A stretch of 21,265 nt of DNA from a virus: positions 1 to 21,265 of IMG/VR virus record IMGVR_UViG_3300034198_003986; one strand, written 5' to 3'. Each line of letters starts with the position of its first letter. Within the stretch, counting starts at the first letter, position 1. Shown piece by piece: positions 4,056 through 21,265 of the stretch. Position numbers and translations under genes: made by a program. Under the pieces are notes generated by a model. The model did no database searches, had not been told where the DNA came from, and saw nothing but the letters and a program-made list of their open reading frames with translations.

Positions 4056-6449
4056 TTAGCTTTTGCGGCCATCAGGACGAATATCAATTCTTGGCGCACC
4101 CAACTGCCAAGCCACACCTAACCCATCTGATCTAATTTCAAACGCCATTTGCCGCCCACGCACTCTGGTCATCACTTGACCGGAGAATTGTTGCACTGTG
4201 TAGGCACGCTCGGTACTGTAGCTTTGACTACTAATGACCTCCGGGGCGCTTGGCGTTCCATAAGCTGTACCGGAGTTTTGTCTGGGTTTGCAAACCATTG
4301 TAACCGCAGGGTAATCAGGTGCCGGAGTCGTGGAGCCGTCAAAAGTCAAATCGGGCAAAATGCGCCAGATATAACCAAAGTTATGCCCGTCTCCAATGTC
4401 AAAATCGGAAGAGCTAACATAGGCTTCAATCGGTACTGGTGTTGCGGTGGATAAGTCATCGTTATCCACCTCGTGGTACATAATCTGGTTAGGCGCGGCA
4501 AGTCCCGCCGTGGAATACGCAACATGAGAAGCCGCAGTAGTGTTGTTGTATCCTCTAATGCAATCACTAAGCGCGACTGGAGTTCTTGCTCCATAATAAA
4601 TATGCTCGTTATCAATTTGAATGATCCCAGTTGCTGGGTATGAAGAGGCGTCCAACAAATTTATTGTGGTGCTGGAAGATGTTATACCTGCGGAAAGATA
4701 ACTTACTGATACGCTAAACGCGCCCATTGGTTTACGACGAACAGAAGAATCCAGCCAAGCTGTGCGGTTCATTGCTCCGTAATACCATACATTATCAAGA
4801 TAATTAAACACTACATATCGGTCATTGACGGTGCTGTTAAGAGACGGATAAAACCACCAAATCTCGCTGTATTGCTCACTGCTTCCAGCCATTATTTGGA
4901 ATCTCTGATTTGGGTTTATTCCGTCAAATACAAACTGTCGTACCGAACAAGGCAATGTTTGAACTCGGCCATCATACATATAGAACTTGTCGATACCCAT
5001 CCAGAACAATACGTTGCTGGAACTAGCTACAGCATTAGGGGACGCAATAGAAATACCGTCCATTAGCAAGTTCACACCCCATACATAAGGTGGCCCCAAG
5101 TATTGCATAGAGTAAATAGCACTGTCAGACCAGACTACAAACTCTTGCCTAGAGTGCCGCCCCGTCACCAGACGCGAACCATGAGAAAGGTGAAGCTCAC
5201 CGGATTGGTTATTTGCCGCAGGAACCCACTGATAAATGTTTTCTTGGTCAGACCACCGAACCAACATAGGATCGAAATCGGTGTTAGCATCGCCCGGATC
5301 ATATGGGTTTGAACCTACAGCTATTGCAAAACGTTGAACACCTGAAGTGTGCATTTCATATACGCGATTTGGCACGAAATCATCATCGTAGCCCGCAGTA
5401 ACCGTCAAACTTTTCAAAGTTACAGCGCGAGATGGGCTGAGAGTAGTGTTGGCGACCCAATAATAAATTGGGCCTTCCCGAATAGCAGCAACCAAGTCTT
5501 GGCCATAATTATCAAGTGACCACAAACGAAGTGAAAAAGTGTCAGTAACACTTTCTGACCCAGAAAACTCGACGCCCCATCCGTCAAGATAACCAACAAT
5601 ACTGGCGGTAGACGCTATCTCTTGGCCCACACTTACCGTGTAAGTTCCAGTACCGCCCGTACCAGTTCCAAATGCAGTGACTGTAGTACCGGCAGTAATT
5701 CCGGTGCCGCTAATAAGCATAGTTTCCAGTATAGCTCCAGAGGCAACGGCAGACACAGTCATAACGGTGCCTGCACCGGGTGGAGTCCCATCGTCAATAG
5801 TAGCGGTAAAGTCGGCATATACAGTATTTCCGCCCCAAGGCCCAAGCCCATATCCGGTTCCAAACGACGAAATGGAATTGCCTGCATTTATTTGATACGC
5901 CGCGCTTACAGCCGCGCCGCCACCAGACCCGGTGGCCGAAGCAGCAGTCGGGAGAATAATTTGATAAGTATTTACGGTAGGCACCGCCACAACCTCAAAT
6001 TCCGCATTAAATACAGTATAGTTTGCGCCAGTAACTCCAGAGAATGTTACAAAGGTGCCAACCGTAATGCCGTGCGCGGTGTCTGTGACAGTAACCAGTT
6101 TTGATCCATTAGCTATAGCAAACGGATTTGTGTTAATGGTTGTAGTATTGCGGATAGGCGTAATGTCGTAGAAAGCCCCGCCGTTTTCTGTGTAGAGCTT
6201 TTGCTCCGTGCCAAGAGCCAATAGATTGCTGCTGTTGAGCGTCACCCAATTCCAAATATTACGGCACACGCCTTTATACGTAGAAAATACACCCGCCACC
6301 GATACGGCGAGGTTCTGCCATCCACCAATTTTCTCTGGAAAGCCGGAACGAAACCGAATCTTGTCGCAGTCGTACCATCCCCCCTCACCGGCATAGTTGG
6401 TGTTCTCTCGGTTAATGCCGGGTTTGAACTGAAGTTTGGATAATGGCAT
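4056..6449 (-). CDS. Tail nozzle / tubular protein B-like, with inserted modules
   Basis: The N-terminus ([20 protein letters not shown], then [18 protein letters not shown]) is typical of a phage family annotated as tail tubular protein B or stabilisation protein, which forms the nozzle of short tails. Beta-propeller-like strands follow, with repeated segments such as [28 protein letters not shown] and [15 protein letters not shown]. At 797 residues it looks longer than the usual nozzle. At least three modules seem to account for this: an HGI/FCCH-like module (residues about 116-168), an [15 protein letters not shown] module (about 212-282) and an IDNEHIYY...CIRG module (about 590-650). The last is closely related to a segment of the adaptor encoded at 15476-16393. 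The nozzle family is well supported; the module boundaries are my estimates. Confidence 0.82.
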
Positions 6450-14687: not shown

Positions 14688-14924
14688 TTATGCCATCGGC
14701 CCGCGAGCCATCTTGCCCTTAGTCTGGGCCTTCCCGCCACGCACTTGAATGCCAGATGTTTTGATAGCGTTATTCATGGACGTACTTACATGCCCAACGC
14801 TCATGGTCTGCTTGTCCAGATTACCCCCATCAGTGCCAAATCCGGGGTTCTTTTGTACAGTCACCGCTTTGCCCTTCATGGTATGCGGAACAGCATACGC
14901 AGAAGCTGGTTTGTTATTGGCCAT
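14688..14924 (-). CDS. Small basic protein with GGK...RGPMA tail
   Basis: This 78-residue protein is rich in glycine, lysine and threonine. Its N-terminal half includes YAVPHTMKGKAVTVQKNPGF, and its C-terminus is VRGGKAQTKGKMARGPMA. That ending resembles short tags seen on other small proteins in aquatic phages. It is probably unstructured or nucleic-acid binding by charge. Its start shares one base with the stop of the 50-residue gene upstream (TAATG). The function is unknown; it is one of a row of short basic genes between the glycosyltransferase and the SU10-type adaptor. Confidence 0.68.
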   Translation of the reverse strand: MANNKPASAYAVPHTMKGKAVTVQKNPGFGTDGGNLDKQTMSVGHVSTSMNNAIKTSGIQVRGGKAQTKGKMARGPMA

Positions 14925-15475: not shown

Positions 15476-16393
15476 CTAGAAATACAATTGACGCGGAACG
15501 AAACGAACCGGGGCTTTATCCCGGTCTTCCGTAGCAGCCCATTCCCACGCCTCGTCATAATCTGCTTTCAAAAGCTGTACACGAGCTTCTGCACCGGGGA
15601 GCTTCTTGGCTAAGTTATAAGCCAGCCCAGCAACCATACACGGGATAAACCTAAACGGTATGTCCTGCCCGTTAATCCCATTACCTGCGTCCTGCATACG
15701 CCGCAAGCGCCAATACACAAAGGTATACGTATTACCGCTATCCGGCACCGGCCACACGTTGATGGCGGGCAGGTTAATCACGTATACGGCAGTTGAAGTG
15801 GCATGGGTTGCCGCAGTGGTATTGGCCTGTCCCCGGACACAGTTCTGAAGCGTCGTACTGGTGGTGCCACTGTAATAGATAATCTCGGAGTCCAGACGTA
15901 TAAAACCTGCGCTGGCCAAACCCACTGTCGTACTTAAAGTAATTGTGGTGTCTGTCGCGGATAGCGTTTCGTTCAAAGTTATAGTCGTTGGCGCAGTAGC
16001 CCCCGTCTGCCGGTTAACCCATACTTGAATGGGCCTGCCAGTGGCAAGCTTATTAGGGATAGTTGCGTACGTCGGCTCACTTATACGGCTGATAGTAATG
16101 TCTATCTGCCCAGTACCGGTACCCGTGCGAACCACATGATCCATCAAATCAACAGTATCTACAGGGAGCGCATAGACACCTTGGCCCGACACCATGGCAA
16201 TCTGCCCTTGCTCCACAGTCCATAGGTTTATACCCCTATTTGCCCACTCAATAGTAAGCAAATTCAAAGACCTTCGGGCAGTCTTTAGGTCGTACCCGCT
16301 ACGTAGTTCCGCCCCACAACGCTCAAAAGCCTCTTCAACAAGACTATTGAGGTCTAAGGAAAATTCCGTAGTTCCGGTGGTGTTGTACGCCAT
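15476..16393 (-). CDS. Head-tail connector/adaptor protein with inserted module
   Basis: The 305-residue protein begins with a helical adaptor domain (residues about 10-60: LDLNSLVEEAFERCGAELRS, YDLKTARRSLNLLTIEWANR) and continues with TVEQGQIAMVSGQGVYALP. This signature is typical of a podovirus head-tail connector family annotated as adaptor or tail tubular protein. Between VWVNRQTG (about 124-131) and LPAINVWPVPD (about 208-218) sits an insertion of some 75 residues with DSEIIYY...NCVRG and NTTAATHATS. It closely parallels a segment of the nozzle protein. The C-terminal helices (DIPFRFIPCMVAGLAYNLAK, DYDEAWEWAATEDRDK) complete the family pattern. It starts in a TAATG junction with the 41-residue gene. 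Confidence 0.85.
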   Translation of the reverse strand: MAYNTTGTTEFSLDLNSLVEEAFERCGAELRSGYDLKTARRSLNLLTIEWANRGINLWTVEQGQIAMVSGQGVYALPVDTVDLMDHVVRTGTGTGQIDITISRISEPTYATIPNKLATGRPIQVWVNRQTGATAPTTITLNETLSATDTTITLSTTVGLASAGFIRLDSEIIYYSGTTSTTLQNCVRGQANTTAATHATSTAVYVINLPAINVWPVPDSGNTYTFVYWRLRRMQDAGNGINGQDIPFRFIPCMVAGLAYNLAKKLPGAEARVQLLKADYDEAWEWAATEDRDKAPVRFVPRQLYF

Positions 16394-16518
16394 TACCTAA
16401 CCTTTTTAGCTTTCCCACCCTGTTTAAACACTTTAACAGGCTCGTTTCCGTCGCGCTTTTTAGTAAGCCGAGGAGCTTTTGAGGGGGCTATTACCCCCAT
16501 CCCGCGAGAGGGGCGCAT
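16393..16518 (-). CDS. Very small basic protein (41 residues)
   Basis: A 41-codon gene begins with MRPSRGMGVIAPSKAPRLTK and ends KVFKQGGKAKKVR. The ATG (16518-16516) lies one base after the stop of the upstream 340-residue gene, and its own TAA overlaps the ATG of the adaptor gene (TAATG at 16393), so it sits exactly between two coupled genes. I recognise MRP-[ST]-[RK]-GMG.I.PSK as the opening of a recurrent small protein in uncultured phages, function unknown. The open frame extends further upstream inside the preceding gene, but that extension has no support. It is strongly cationic. Confidence 0.75.
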   Translation of the reverse strand: MRPSRGMGVIAPSKAPRLTKKRDGNEPVKVFKQGGKAKKVR

Positions 16519-16519
16519 T

Positions 16520-17542
16520 TTAACGCATCTTGCAGTTGGTCTTGCCGCGTTGAGCAATACCGTCGGCGCGAGCGGATACAGAGCCACCAGAGGCAAACTT
16601 CACAATACCTCCACTAGCCATCCGAATCTGGGTGCCTTTGGTCTTGCCCCGCTGCTCAATGCCGCCACCGCGCACAAACTTCATGCCCTTCGCTTCCTTT
16701 TCCTCATGCTTAATCATAGATGCCGGAGCGCCCTTCTTCTTGAAGAACTCTACCTCTTTTTTAACCATCGCTTTGGATTCTTTCATCATGCCTCCTTTGG
16801 CGTACCCTTTGTCCTGCATTCTTCGGATTAGCGCATCCTGCGCCTGCTTACCCGTAAAACCTCGTTTACCGTATATGTTGGAGGCCGCAGGGGGAGGCGT
16901 ATTCTCGCGTAATGCCCCGCGCGTACGTGCAGATTCTTTCTCCGATTGCTCTAAGAAACGCTTCCTCTCGGCATAGGTTCTTCCGGGGACACGAACCGCC
17001 GCCCCCACTTTGCCTGCGGCCATAACCCCCCTCCCAACCGGAAGCACTTCTGCCGCAGTCTCTAACCGTTTTTTTGCGTCCTCTTCATCCGCGACATACA
17101 GTGCGCCGCGCGCTTGATTCCCCGTCTTACCGTAGCGTCCTTGCTGGGGGGTGGATTTTTTATCCTCTGCGCCATCCTCTCGTTCCGAAACGTTGCGACT
17201 TTGTGGACTTTGTGGACTTTCTGCCGCAGTAGATTCCGGCTCAGAAGCGTACTTCCCCCTGAGAGATTTCTGAAGGTCAGAGGGGCCGGAATAGGGGTTG
17301 TCGCGGTCTACATCCCCTCCGCCGGAATATCCTGCGTACTTAGTAAGTTTCGTAAAGGGCATATCCATCTTGCCGTGCCGCGTGTCCTGCCGGTTGATCT
17401 TAGCCATTCCGCCCCCCGCCATTTTCACGCCCTCTTTGGACATGCGCTCTGCGGCAGATTGCTTGATACCACTGCTTTTGGCAATGGCAGGATTATGCGC
17501 GGCGGCGCGAAAAAGCTTCATCTGTTTGGGTGTCCAAGGCAT
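16520..17542 (-). CDS. Basic, low-complexity protein with two RGKT tags
   Basis: The 340-residue protein begins MPWTPKQMKLFRAAAHNPAI, followed by a serine/glutamate/arginine-rich low-complexity middle (residues about 75-150). A helical segment follows (LIRRMQDKGYAKGGMMKESK, MVKKEVEFFKKKGAPASMIK, near 230-275). The C-terminus holds two copies of a short tag: RGGGIEQRGKTKG (about 289-301) and RADGIAQRGKTNCKMR, the last residues of the protein. A third copy closes the gene just upstream. The KESKAMVKKEV...KKGAP.SMIKHE phrase recurs in small proteins of uncultured phages. Start and upstream stop share one base (TAATG). The function is unknown; the composition suggests nucleic-acid or scaffold binding. 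Confidence 0.72.
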   Translation of the reverse strand: MPWTPKQMKLFRAAAHNPAIAKSSGIKQSAAERMSKEGVKMAGGGMAKINRQDTRHGKMDMPFTKLTKYAGYSGGGDVDRDNPYSGPSDLQKSLRGKYASEPESTAAESPQSPQSRNVSEREDGAEDKKSTPQQGRYGKTGNQARGALYVADEEDAKKRLETAAEVLPVGRGVMAAGKVGAAVRVPGRTYAERKRFLEQSEKESARTRGALRENTPPPAASNIYGKRGFTGKQAQDALIRRMQDKGYAKGGMMKESKAMVKKEVEFFKKKGAPASMIKHEEKEAKGMKFVRGGGIEQRGKTKGTQIRMASGGIVKFASGGSVSARADGIAQRGKTNCKMR

Positions 17543-17592
17543 TATACAAATCTCCCTTTGGTCTTACCCCGCTGCTCAATACCGCCACCACG
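16536..17592 (-). repeat. Three dispersed copies of a tag-encoding sequence
   Basis: Near-identical stretches of about 38 bases occur at 16536-16573, 16635-16672 and 17555-17592, each containing a form of ttggtcttgcc...gctgctcaat. On the minus strand they encode [AG][DG]GI[AE]QRGKT[KN]. The copies at 16635 and 17555 are the closest pair and sit in different genes, so the tag has moved or been duplicated at the DNA level instead of arising by convergence. The coordinates span the three copies and the unrelated sequence between them. Confidence 0.85.
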
Positions 17593-17790
17593 AGCGTAAG
17601 CAGAGGTTTTAACTGAGCCACCTTTCTTGAGTACTTTGCCCATTTCAGTTTTGGTGGTCGGAGCGGCTTCTTCTTTTTTACGACGTATTTTGTCCCGCGC
17701 TTCATCCGCCGCCTGTTGTTGCGACGGGGTTAGTTTTTGCGGTTCTTGCGGCTCTTGCGGTTTAGGGACGGGTAGTTTTTGTTCAGCCAT
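17542..17790 (-). CDS. Small basic protein ending in an RGKTKGR tag
   Basis: This 82-residue protein has a proline/glutamine-rich N-terminus (KLPVPKPQEPQEPQKLTP), a charged helix (DEARDKIRRKKEEAAPT) and a C-terminal GGG-containing tag that ends the protein (ARGGGIEQRGKTKGRFV). The tag matches ones in the next gene almost residue for residue. The start has an AGGAGCC ribosome site, and the stop overlaps the next start (TAATG). The tag's placement at the extreme C-terminus of two successive proteins suggests a shared binding or targeting signal; this is inference. No family is recognised. Confidence 0.7.
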   Translation of the reverse strand: MAEQKLPVPKPQEPQEPQKLTPSQQQAADEARDKIRRKKEEAAPTTKTEMGKVLKKGGSVKTSAYARGGGIEQRGKTKGRFV

Positions 17791-17799
17791 AGTAGGCTC

Positions 17800-18045
17800 C
17801 TATATTTTTTGGCGCTCTATGATGCGATCAAGTTTTTCGTCCATCTTGTCCAACCGGGCATTTATACGATGCTGGAAGTCAAGTAACGCCGCTTTTTCTG
17901 CCGTGCGTTCAGCCTCAACAATTGCCAAACGTTTATCCAATGTAGTATACGCATATACTACTGCCAGCGCCGCAGTAGCAAAACTAAGAATGTCCGCAAG
18001 GCTTATTTCTTTCTTGAACGTCCAAGGTTCTTTTGGGTATTCCAA
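17800..18045 (-). CDS. Small single-pass membrane protein with coiled coil
   Basis: This 81-residue protein has a hydrophobic segment at about residues 16-36 (LADILSFATAALAVVYAYTT) followed by a long charged helix (LAIVEAERTAEKAALLDFQH, then RLDKMDEKLDRIIERQKI) with heptad-like spacing, probably a coiled coil. The start codon is TTG (18045-18043), supported by a strong ribosome site (AAGGGGG six bases upstream). Proteins with this layout in phages include small holin-like and XhlA/DUF2730-like membrane anchors. Its distance from the lysis pair at 6465-7348 makes a lysis role uncertain. Function unassigned. Confidence 0.68.
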   Translation of the reverse strand: MEYPKEPWTFKKEISLADILSFATAALAVVYAYTTLDKRLAIVEAERTAEKAALLDFQHRINARLDKMDEKLDRIIERQKI

Positions 18046-18055
18046 GTATGCCCCC

Positions 18056-18310
18056 TTAGCATTTCCATGCCCGAAGGCTTTTGTTAATACGACTATTCGG
18101 GTCTTTGGCGGTCTTCTCTGAGGTTAACTTCTTCTTCATACCCGTCATCCTCGCGCAAAAGGAATCTCGGCGGGAGCCTCCTTCTGGCTGTGGTCGCTTC
18201 AATCCGGGCTTTCCGGGATTGGCCGCGTTGTAAGAAGCCCTCCCCTTCGCGTTCAAGCCCCCACTGGGATTTTTCCCTTCTGCTCTTTGCCATGCTGGAC
18301 TCTTTGCCAT
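18056..18310 (-). CDS. DUF6321-like small basic protein
   Basis: This 84-residue protein has the pattern SPAWQRAEGKNPSGGLNAKG, then SYNAANPGKPGLKRPQPEGG, SRRDSFCARMTGMKKKLTSE and DPNSRINKSLRAWKC. I recall this order of blocks from a conserved family of uncultured and marine phages listed as DUF6321, but cannot check it here. It is very basic, with two cysteines (in SFCARM and at the last residue). The start shares one base with the glycosyltransferase stop (TAATG at 18310). Conservation of the family suggests a virion or DNA-packaging-related function, which is not established. Confidence 0.75.
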   Translation of the reverse strand: MAKSPAWQRAEGKNPSGGLNAKGRASYNAANPGKPGLKRPQPEGGSRRDSFCARMTGMKKKLTSEKTAKDPNSRINKSLRAWKC

Positions 18311-19062
18311 TATGCCGCATCACTCATGCTTTGGTTCTGTATCATGGAGGGATACAAAACGTCGTTGCCAAAATCGCTCATATGCTCCACCACACCCATA
18401 TGGCCCAACTTGATCGTCGGGTCAACCCAAACAGAAAACCCTGCCGCTCTGGCGCGATCACAGAACAGAAAGTCTTCGCCAATCATGCCTTCAGGGGTGA
18501 CTTTAAAGTCAAAAAAACTATACAGACGGTTAGGGCTGTTTGAGTCCAAATGCTCCCATTCAGGGTGCGCGTCACGCAGCACTTCAAACACATCTCTGCG
18601 TATCATCATAAACCCTGTTGCAACCCGATACGCCTTGACCAAACCATCCTCATCCATTGTCACTTTTCCAGTGGCTCCATCAATCCCAGTGCTGCCATCA
18701 ATAGAAAGAATATAGGTCTTGGGTTCTTTGCGAGCTACGTACGCTCCGGCAACCACAGGGCGTTCCTGATTCCACGCCATAAGACGAATGACTGACTCAG
18801 GTTCAAATGTCATATCCGCGTCAATGAACATCAGATGATCGCAATCGGATTTCAGGAAGTTATGCGCGATCACATTACGCGCACGGGATACTACGGAACA
18901 TCCACAGATGCTGTTTACCTGAATGTCAATCCCATGCTGCAATACCATCTGGCTTAATTTCATCAGAGATACAGCCATACTTACTGTAACCTTATGGTCA
19001 TACGCTGGCAGACCAATCATCAACTTCTTGCCCGCCAGATTAAAGCCCTTTTGAGATTGCAT
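18310..19062 (-). CDS. GT-A fold glycosyltransferase
   Basis: The 250-residue protein transfers a sugar from an activated donor. It opens with a strand-loop typical of GT-A enzymes (KLMIGLPAYDHKVTVSMA, residues about 13-30), continues with SRARNVIAHNFLKSDCDHLM, and has the metal-binding FIDADMTFEPESVI segment with a DAD motif at 81-83. An acceptor-side GEDFLFCDRARAAGF (GED at 195-197) and a later KLGHMG histidine complete the pattern. It resembles the ANP1/MNN9-like group carried by several podoviruses. With the methyltransferase-DUF115 protein it may modify glycans on the virion or the cell surface. Donor and acceptor are unknown. It starts three bases after the upstream stop. Confidence 0.85.
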   Translation of the reverse strand: MQSQKGFNLAGKKLMIGLPAYDHKVTVSMAVSLMKLSQMVLQHGIDIQVNSICGCSVVSRARNVIAHNFLKSDCDHLMFIDADMTFEPESVIRLMAWNQERPVVAGAYVARKEPKTYILSIDGSTGIDGATGKVTMDEDGLVKAYRVATGFMMIRRDVFEVLRDAHPEWEHLDSNSPNRLYSFFDFKVTPEGMIGEDFLFCDRARAAGFSVWVDPTIKLGHMGVVEHMSDFGNDVLYPSMIQNQSMSDAA

Positions 19063-20443: not shown

Positions 20444-21265
20444 TTAACTACCGCTAGAACCAAAGATACCCAGCGGATCGCTCCAGCCAAACGAATAACG
20501 CTCGCGTGACTTGTAACGTACGTTCCCGGTATCGAAATCCCCGTCCATGGAATTTGCCAGCGGAGTACGAACAAAGTGCTTCAAGCCATTCGGTACGTCC
20601 GTCGTCAAGAACCAACCGTTGATATCGGTCAAGAAGTGATTGACCGTGTAACCGCCCGGAATGGAGCCGTTGTTTTTCAACGCGTTGATGTCGTTGTTGT
20701 TGGTGCTAACGCGAAGTTCCGTTTCCAGAAGACGCGTTGCAACGAACATCAGGTTCGGCGGAACAATCAGCTTTTTCGGCTTGGCTGCGATCAGCAGGCC
20801 ACGCTCGTCCGTCCATCCGGCAATCTGAATAACCGCAGCTTCCAAGGAAGTCTCATTCAGATCAGCAGACGCAAGAACGTTGCTGTTGGTACCGCCAGAA
20901 ATCAGCGGATGGTCAGACGCAATCAAGGTCTTACCATCACCGCCAGTCGGGCCACCAGTAAAGGAGTTATTCAGCACAGAGGCTGCTTTGACCTGTTTGG
21001 TGTACGCCATGGCGCGAGCCAACGCTTTGGTATAACGAGCCGACAGGCTGTCATACAGGTTATCTTCAACCGCTTCTTCAGTGATTGAGAAACCCAAAGC
21101 AATAGTCTCGTGCTGGTATCGCGCTGTCCATGCCTCCTGCCCGTTGTCATACGAGATTGCAGCGCCCTCGTTTTTGACCGGTGCGGCACTAAAGCCCGAC
21201 AGTTTCACTTCTTCTTCAAAAGAACGCTCGGAAGTCTCGGTTTCGTAGATTTCCTTGTGCTCTTC
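20444..21265 (-). CDS. Major capsid protein, 5' end outside the window
   Basis: The frame is open to the right edge, giving 273 codons without the start. The visible part begins EEHKEIYETETSERSFEEEV and contains a HK97-type capsid pattern common in podoviruses: KLSGFSAAPVKNEGAAISYD, ARYQHETIALGFSITEEAVE, then SARYTKALARAMAYTKQVKA and VLNNSFTGGPTGGDGKTLIA. It ends in YSFGWSDPLGIFGSSGS. A GTG within the frame at 21208 is not the real start, because the coding frame continues upstream without a stop and with family-like sequence. The protein forms the icosahedral shell. It is the first gene of this window's cluster, and upstream genes (portal, scaffold, terminase) would be expected to the right. 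Confidence 0.9.
   Translation of the reverse strand, partial: EEHKEIYETETSERSFEEEVKLSGFSAAPVKNEGAAISYDNGQEAWTARYQHETIALGFSITEEAVEDNLYDSLSARYTKALARAMAYTKQVKAASVLNNSFTGGPTGGDGKTLIASDHPLISGGTNSNVLASADLNETSLEAAVIQIAGWTDERGLLIAAKPKKLIVPPNLMFVATRLLETELRVSTNNNDINALKNNGSIPGGYTVNHFLTDINGWFLTTDVPNGLKHFVRTPLANSMDGDFDTGNVRYKSRERYSFGWSDPLGIFGSSGS

Follow-up and report, generated by a model that had tools for sequence, protein, structure and literature searches.

Why do two successive minus-strand genes of a virus encode the same short basic peptide three times, twice at the very C-terminus? The genes lie in the 21,265-base virus record IMGVR_UViG_3300034198_003986, the whole of which was analysed (hereafter, the window), and the peptide, referred to below as the tag, has the core G-I-x-Q-R-G-K-T. 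This arrangement had been claimed in an original prediction on the same DNA, and both the translations and a repeat finder bear it out; the repeat finder also recovered independently the predicted near-identity over ~38 bases (92% identical DNA, 16635–16672 versus 17555–17592), and a further stretch (16533–16570) is 74% identical to the reference copy. As judged from the sequence comparisons below, the tag is a portable C-terminal peptide mounted on bodies that look unrelated, and its carriers are one abundant, mostly uncultured group of aquatic phages.

Extent, form and portability of the tag

IMG/VR was scanned with a degenerate DNA pattern for the motif, which returned at least 120 stretches, and with two further versions of the pattern; most loci are contig fragments, and gene calls were made in this analysis. 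Tagged open reading frames (ORFs) number at least 755 in at least 300 loci, with 1–6 per locus. Already in the first scan, 190 of 226 motif-bearing ORFs stop exactly 4 residues past the scored motif, i.e., 5 past the core Thr. The main form, found in 471 of the 755 ORFs, has exactly five residues after the core Thr and the consensus RADGIAQRGKT[KR]G[KR]xx-COOH, with a tag length of 16 residues; a long-end form occurs in 253 ORFs, mostly one gene per contig and of the KQH family, and a form with two residues after the core Thr in 23. In the window, the copy ending an 82-residue protein has the +5 spacing of the main form, and the internal copy of the adjoining 340-residue protein contains VRGGGIEQRGKTKGTQIRMASGG, its long form being the C-terminus of homologous genes from other contigs. 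The tag is rich in Gly, Lys, and Arg with 4–6 basic residues, and the isoelectric point (pI) exceeds 9 in all 755 tagged proteins. For ASCERTAINMENT, because the scans had required the core, C-termini were picked again through the upstream flank alone, minus the copies matching any scan pattern. Exactly 13 residues follow the Asp in 194 of the 254 flank-selected copies, and among these 194 the two Gly and the Thr are each present in 194/194 and the Lys in 192/194; the final two residues of the flank-selected copies are mostly hydrophobic or Cys.

Outside IMG/VR, a comparable pattern occurs at 4 places in 85,000 prokaryote genomes, two of which are phage-like contigs in lake metagenome-assembled genomes (MAGs) and one of which is internal and probably a chance match. 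A 613-residue ORF on a Patulibacter MAG contig (JALRCL010000652.1; L127, 5997–7839 in reverse-complement coordinates) has a perfect phage tag at its end after an unrelated membrane-like stretch, and is possibly a misassembled contig end. Among 50,697 phage records, tblastn of tag peptides matched only MinM2, Pag-Yong1, and Pra-JY27, other queries giving nothing or noise, in a search weakened by short or masked queries; these three are near-identical records of cyanophage isolates in which the tag ends a 308-residue protein near the capsid gene (RDGCAKRGRTKGRFI; WEV89192.1 in MinM2). The tag alone had no match in the PDB or PHROGs. The literature search found the tag peptide strings in no paper, and returned no papers on DUF6321 or DUF6496.

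The portability asserted in the original prediction was judged from tagged proteins encoded on the same contig, of which only 3 in 695 pairs are similar outside the tag (phmmer, E 0.01). A tag limited to one homologous family, which the prediction had named as its counter-case, is thereby rejected. This pair test is relied on because the number of families varies with how they are counted: phmmer with single linkage sorted the tagged proteins of 120 loci into 79 families but, in 300 loci, merged 502 proteins into a single group out of 120, and BLAST with a coverage rule yielded 350 clusters, of which 260 were singletons. Because the bodies are short and have a disordered composition, very remote homology may exist among some of them. 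Pfam matched one of 117 representative tagged proteins (DUF6321), and PHROG matched a few. The 82-residue protein of the window has no family above noise in Pfam or PHROG; its APTTKTEMGK segment recurs in tagged proteins from other contigs. Portability is also seen within one protein, DUF6321 (PF19846) of cyanophages and pelagiphages, which occurs in the same gene island and is a body that can carry the tag, whereas most members stop at a conserved Cys. The ending ...W[NK]C is common to the homologues whether or not a tag is added to it, and in 10 of 61 distinct homologues the tag follows the terminal Cys where the remaining ones stop; a poorly resolved tree implies at least two gains or losses of the tag.

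Whether the peptide or its DNA is conserved was assessed from codons. Synonymous codons are mixed at each conserved tag position, and the third-codon identity between same-peptide tags in 120 loci is 0.50 within contigs and 0.44 between contigs, compared with 0.43 and 0.37 expected from codon usage. Since third positions vary almost freely and the peptide is near invariant, the peptide appears to be the main target of selection, and selection on it is, on this codon evidence, the main cause of tag conservation. It is hardly credible that the tag is instead a DNA repeat that arose by recombination, has no function as a peptide, and spread by linking modules; the 92% identity across 38 bases in the window is what such a repeat would give, but the third positions are nearly free, tag peptides from one contig resemble each other no more closely (0.705) than those from different contigs (0.701), and the codon test contradicts it. 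From the DNA near-identity the original prediction had argued for duplication and not chance. Chance is indeed set aside, with the same tag ending hundreds of ORFs from other contigs, but near-identity alone is no proof of duplication, and what is conserved is the peptide; the two GGGIEQRGKTKG copies of the window, which have the same third position at 7 of 9, may still be a local duplication.

Genomic setting and phage lineage

The tag site is a variable gene island between the major capsid and head–tail adaptor genes. In 121 loci, all tags are on one strand, the genes for the major capsid protein (MCP), portal, scaffold-like and GroES-like proteins, and terminase are always upstream, and the SU10-like adaptor gene and those following it are downstream; 189 new loci have the same layout, apart from 2 tiny fragments without a marker. 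The MCP gene is upstream of the tags in 58/58 loci of the first set and 94/94 of the second, and the adaptor gene is downstream in 100/104 and 153/153, respectively. By its capsid, adaptor, and gene order, the window fits a clade of phages with a Mu gpT-like capsid and an SU10-like adaptor, and its MCP is 86% identical to that of locus L143. In the MCP tree, the tagged rows form one supported clade with the window among the tagged members.

To sample without regard to the tag, loci were gathered by the capsid gene, and islands were scored where capsid and adaptor were both present. All 36 islands of the window's clade were tagged (32 with the RADG tag and 4 with a sister tag), versus 1 of 48 in the DSL-LC04-like clade and 0 of 73 in the CRP-902-like clade; the median island length is 3.6 kb in the window's clade versus 2.2 and 1.1 kb, respectively, in these sister clades. 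Relatives of the same capsid lineage, e.g., CRP-902, have no such island, and the tagged genes are therefore regarded as accessory. The mobile tag of the original prediction thus occurs on hundreds of proteins, but within a single capsid clade and a single gene island and not across phages in general.

The sister tag (RGAGCAxKGVRPCKMV-like), likewise unannotated, stands in place of the RADG tag or alongside it in a few clade members, one island having both. The two are alike in their C-terminal place on KQH-family and other island proteins, with the pattern G-[CI]-A-x-x-G...KM in common. The form GGxVRGAG[CI]A..GVRPCKM[VM] or a similar one was seen in L369 (6242–6757), L387 (6784–7200), L408 (9696–10493), and L409 (2563–3003).

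Possible roles of the tag

We propose, with a probability of about 0.52, that the tag is a C-terminal address label by which a changing set of accessory proteins, small, basic, and for the most part unstructured, is brought into the head as the phage assembles. Because the tag is invariant yet without a fold of its own, it would be recognised in trans, the chain end forming part of the short linear motif that is read. In the AlphaFold2 model of the 340-residue protein, only residues 1–40 (helical) and a few helices are confident, and the tag regions are without structure (predicted local distance difference test score, pLDDT, about 50); the tag on a DUF6321 model is likewise unstructured, and Foldseek returned no significant match for either model. 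The reader would probably be the scaffold core or the inner capsid face, and the labelled proteins would be packed with the DNA and probably ejected, their rapidly changing bodies then acting inside the host, for example, in counter-defence. Virion presence, reader identity, ejection, and the functions of the bodies are the steps that we infer. Tentatively, and at somewhat less than an even chance, one phage clade may have a near-invariant C-terminal sorting code that is read by a lineage-specific head component and loads rapidly changing basic effectors into virions, which would constitute a general protein-delivery system of aquatic phages; such a sorting code is absent from the family libraries searched.

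A head-related role, one of those put forward in the original prediction, gains indirect support because the tag has a fixed position in the head module, is linked to the capsid clade, and shares a protein with a module proven to be in virions. The last is the conserved ~40-residue N-terminal helical module of the KQH family, which the 340-residue protein of the window contains. Over 43 residues, phiKZ165.1 has 74% identity to the family consensus, which also matches CBB_322, a protein that begins with the module; homologous modules of ~43 residues occur in phiKZ165.1, CBB_322, and 121Q gp51. CBB_322 was detected in CBB virions by mass spectrometry with 30 unique peptides (PMC5259590). The 121Q protein gp51 (29.05 kDa; its gene adjoins those for a 60.14-kDa protein and topoisomerase) probably corresponds, from gene order and mass, to phAPEC6 gp161c (28.98 kDa), which was detected in virions through 6 peptides (PMC7247149). 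In contrast to the window protein, CBB_322, 121Q gp51, and phiKZ165.1 have no tag at their C-termini; this evidence places the KQH module, not the tag, in virions. The module stands alone in phiKZ-like jumbo phages (phiKZ165.1; L586, 3001–3177), and virion proteins of Rak2-like phages carry it at their N-terminus (CBB_322, L585, 2501–5044; 121Q gp51, L149, 3001–3792).

Two known head signals offer a comparison. T-even internal proteins are highly diverse, with a capsid targeting sequence (CTS) as their sole common part (PMC3012670). The tag resembles the T4 CTS in being a short terminal peptide that is the sole conserved part of diverse small proteins of one phage group, and the pair test above finds it on otherwise unrelated proteins as expected of a T4-type CTS. 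However, the CTS lies at the N-terminus and enters the scaffold core, whereas the tag is C-terminal in 755 ORFs, basic, and from another capsid lineage, a distinction drawn without sequence comparison. Because end, sequence, and capsid lineage differ, the tag is not filed as a member of the CTS family; by analogy, it may work like the CTS in packaging. In P1 DarB, a terminal peptide likewise acts as a head signal and is enough to direct a reporter there (PMC9024508), but it is N-terminal and has no consensus among Dar proteins, in contrast to the very strong consensus of the C-terminal tag.

Several points weigh against a head-targeting label. The literature yielded neither an experiment on a tagged phage nor a proteome of one, and no report of a tagged protein in a virion. 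Both known signals lie at the N-terminus. Tag and KQH module are distinct, and the virion location of the module is thus no proof of a role for the tag. Linkage to a capsid clade fits any other lineage-specific function too, and a basic tag could bind DNA. Furthermore, no maturation protease was recognised between the portal and MCP genes (one genome, Pfam or PHROGs), and removal of the signal as in T4 is therefore not indicated. If the tag is nevertheless such a label, the internal, probably ejected proteins of abundant and mostly uncultured phages could be listed from sequence alone, although they are otherwise unrecognisable (Pfam match in 1/117 representatives), the tag would provide a short C-terminal handle with which proteins could be loaded into phage heads, and head-protein sorting would become testable in existing isolates. 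If it is not, an unusually conserved peptide on hundreds of proteins still needs explaining.

DNA binding is the main rival, since all tagged proteins are strongly basic. The tag would then be a DNA-binding or DNA-condensing tail with which the tagged proteins coat or compact phage DNA, packaging being passive, a role in keeping with its basic, Gly/Lys/Arg-rich, and unstructured character. We consider this unlikely, because non-specific DNA tails need neither invariant Gly, Thr, Ala, and Asp residues nor a fixed distance from the C-terminus; the AT-hook, defined by a GRP core flanked by basic residues, is also absent, the core being RGKT[KR]G without proline.

It is quite unlikely that the tag has its role within the host cell during infection rather than in the particle, for instance by guiding the sorting, membrane docking, or turnover of late proteins. 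Degrons and PDZ-type ligands typically also have a fixed C-terminus, a hydrophobic stretch opens some of the tagged proteins, and the lack of a published virion proteome agrees with an intracellular role; against these stand the location inside the head gene module and, in the main tagged family, an N-terminal module proven to be in virions. The tag is not a sorting signal of the LPXTG or PEP-CTERM type, in which a hydrophobic transmembrane stretch and a basic end come after the signal, as only 5 residues follow the core Thr in the main form and there is no hydrophobic stretch.

Docking at the neck or portal vertex, or service as a structural head–tail connector and not as a cargo label, would account for the position of the island, which in almost every locus comes directly before the SU10-like adaptor gene. 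It is very unlikely, however, in view of bodies that show no relation to one another, vary in number, and are mostly disordered, and of sister clades that build the same module without tagged proteins. A Walker A phosphate-binding loop of a small NTPase is virtually impossible: G-IAQR-GKT and most other copies fit the consensus GxxxxGK[ST], but the essential Lys is replaced by His, Arg, or Phe in some tags, and 5 residues separate the motif from the stop, in a helix-less, low-pLDDT tail (two models) and not between a β-strand and a helix, with no NTPase fold or family, so that this loop is ruled out.

Features of the window and its gene island

Table 1. Tag copies, tagged proteins, and neighbouring genes in the window
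Feature	Position	Strand	Details
Major capsid protein (partial), upstream island border	20444..21265	-	Pfam Phage_capsid_4, E=8e-13; Mu-like gpT, E=8e-9
DUF6321 protein, untagged in the window	18056..18310	-	Pfam PF19846, E=7e-19; tagged after the terminal Cys in other contigs
Small membrane-anchor/coiled-coil-like island protein	17800..18045	-	PHROG 24782, E=3e-9
Tagged 82-residue protein	17542..17790	-	Basic; ends ARGGGIEQRGKTKGRFV
C-terminal tag copy 1	17545..17595	-	ARGGGIEQRGKTKGRFV-COOH, end of the 82-residue protein
Tagged 340-residue protein, KQH family	16520..17542	-	Internal copy and C-terminal SVSARADGIAQRGKTNCKMR
N-terminal KQH module (MPWTPKQMKLFRAAAHNPAIAKSSGIKQSAAERMSKEGVKM), predicted three-helix bundle	17414..17542	-	PHROG 25121 'virion structural protein', E=2e-4
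Internal tag copy 2, long form	16601..16675	-	VRGGGIEQRGKTKGTQIRMASGGIV
C-terminal tag copy 3, type I	16523..16582	-	SVSARADGIAQRGKTNCKMR-COOH, end of the 340-residue protein
Small basic island protein MRPSRGMGVIAPSK..., untagged	16393..16518	-	Homologous small gene usually just before the adaptor
SU10-like head–tail adaptor gene, downstream island border	15476..16393	-	L143 homologue: Pfam SU10_adaptor, E=2.5e-8

A 79-residue island gene comparable to that of the membrane-anchor-like protein (Table 1) is present in 58 of the 121 loci. The capsid–adaptor interval of the window also includes a glycosyltransferase-like gene (18310–19062, minus strand), found in 24 of 121 related loci. In L143, a GroES-like gene (4908–5312; PHROG 3188) lies between the portal and scaffold-like genes, and GroES is annotated at the same place in those sister-clade isolates that were read. 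On the adaptor side, a basic 78-residue protein of the window (14688–14924, minus strand) ends in the tag-like SGIQVRGGKAQTKGKMARGPMA, and its L143 homologue in DGIKIRGTGAATKGVMARGPMA; this ending is conserved between the adaptor-side genes.
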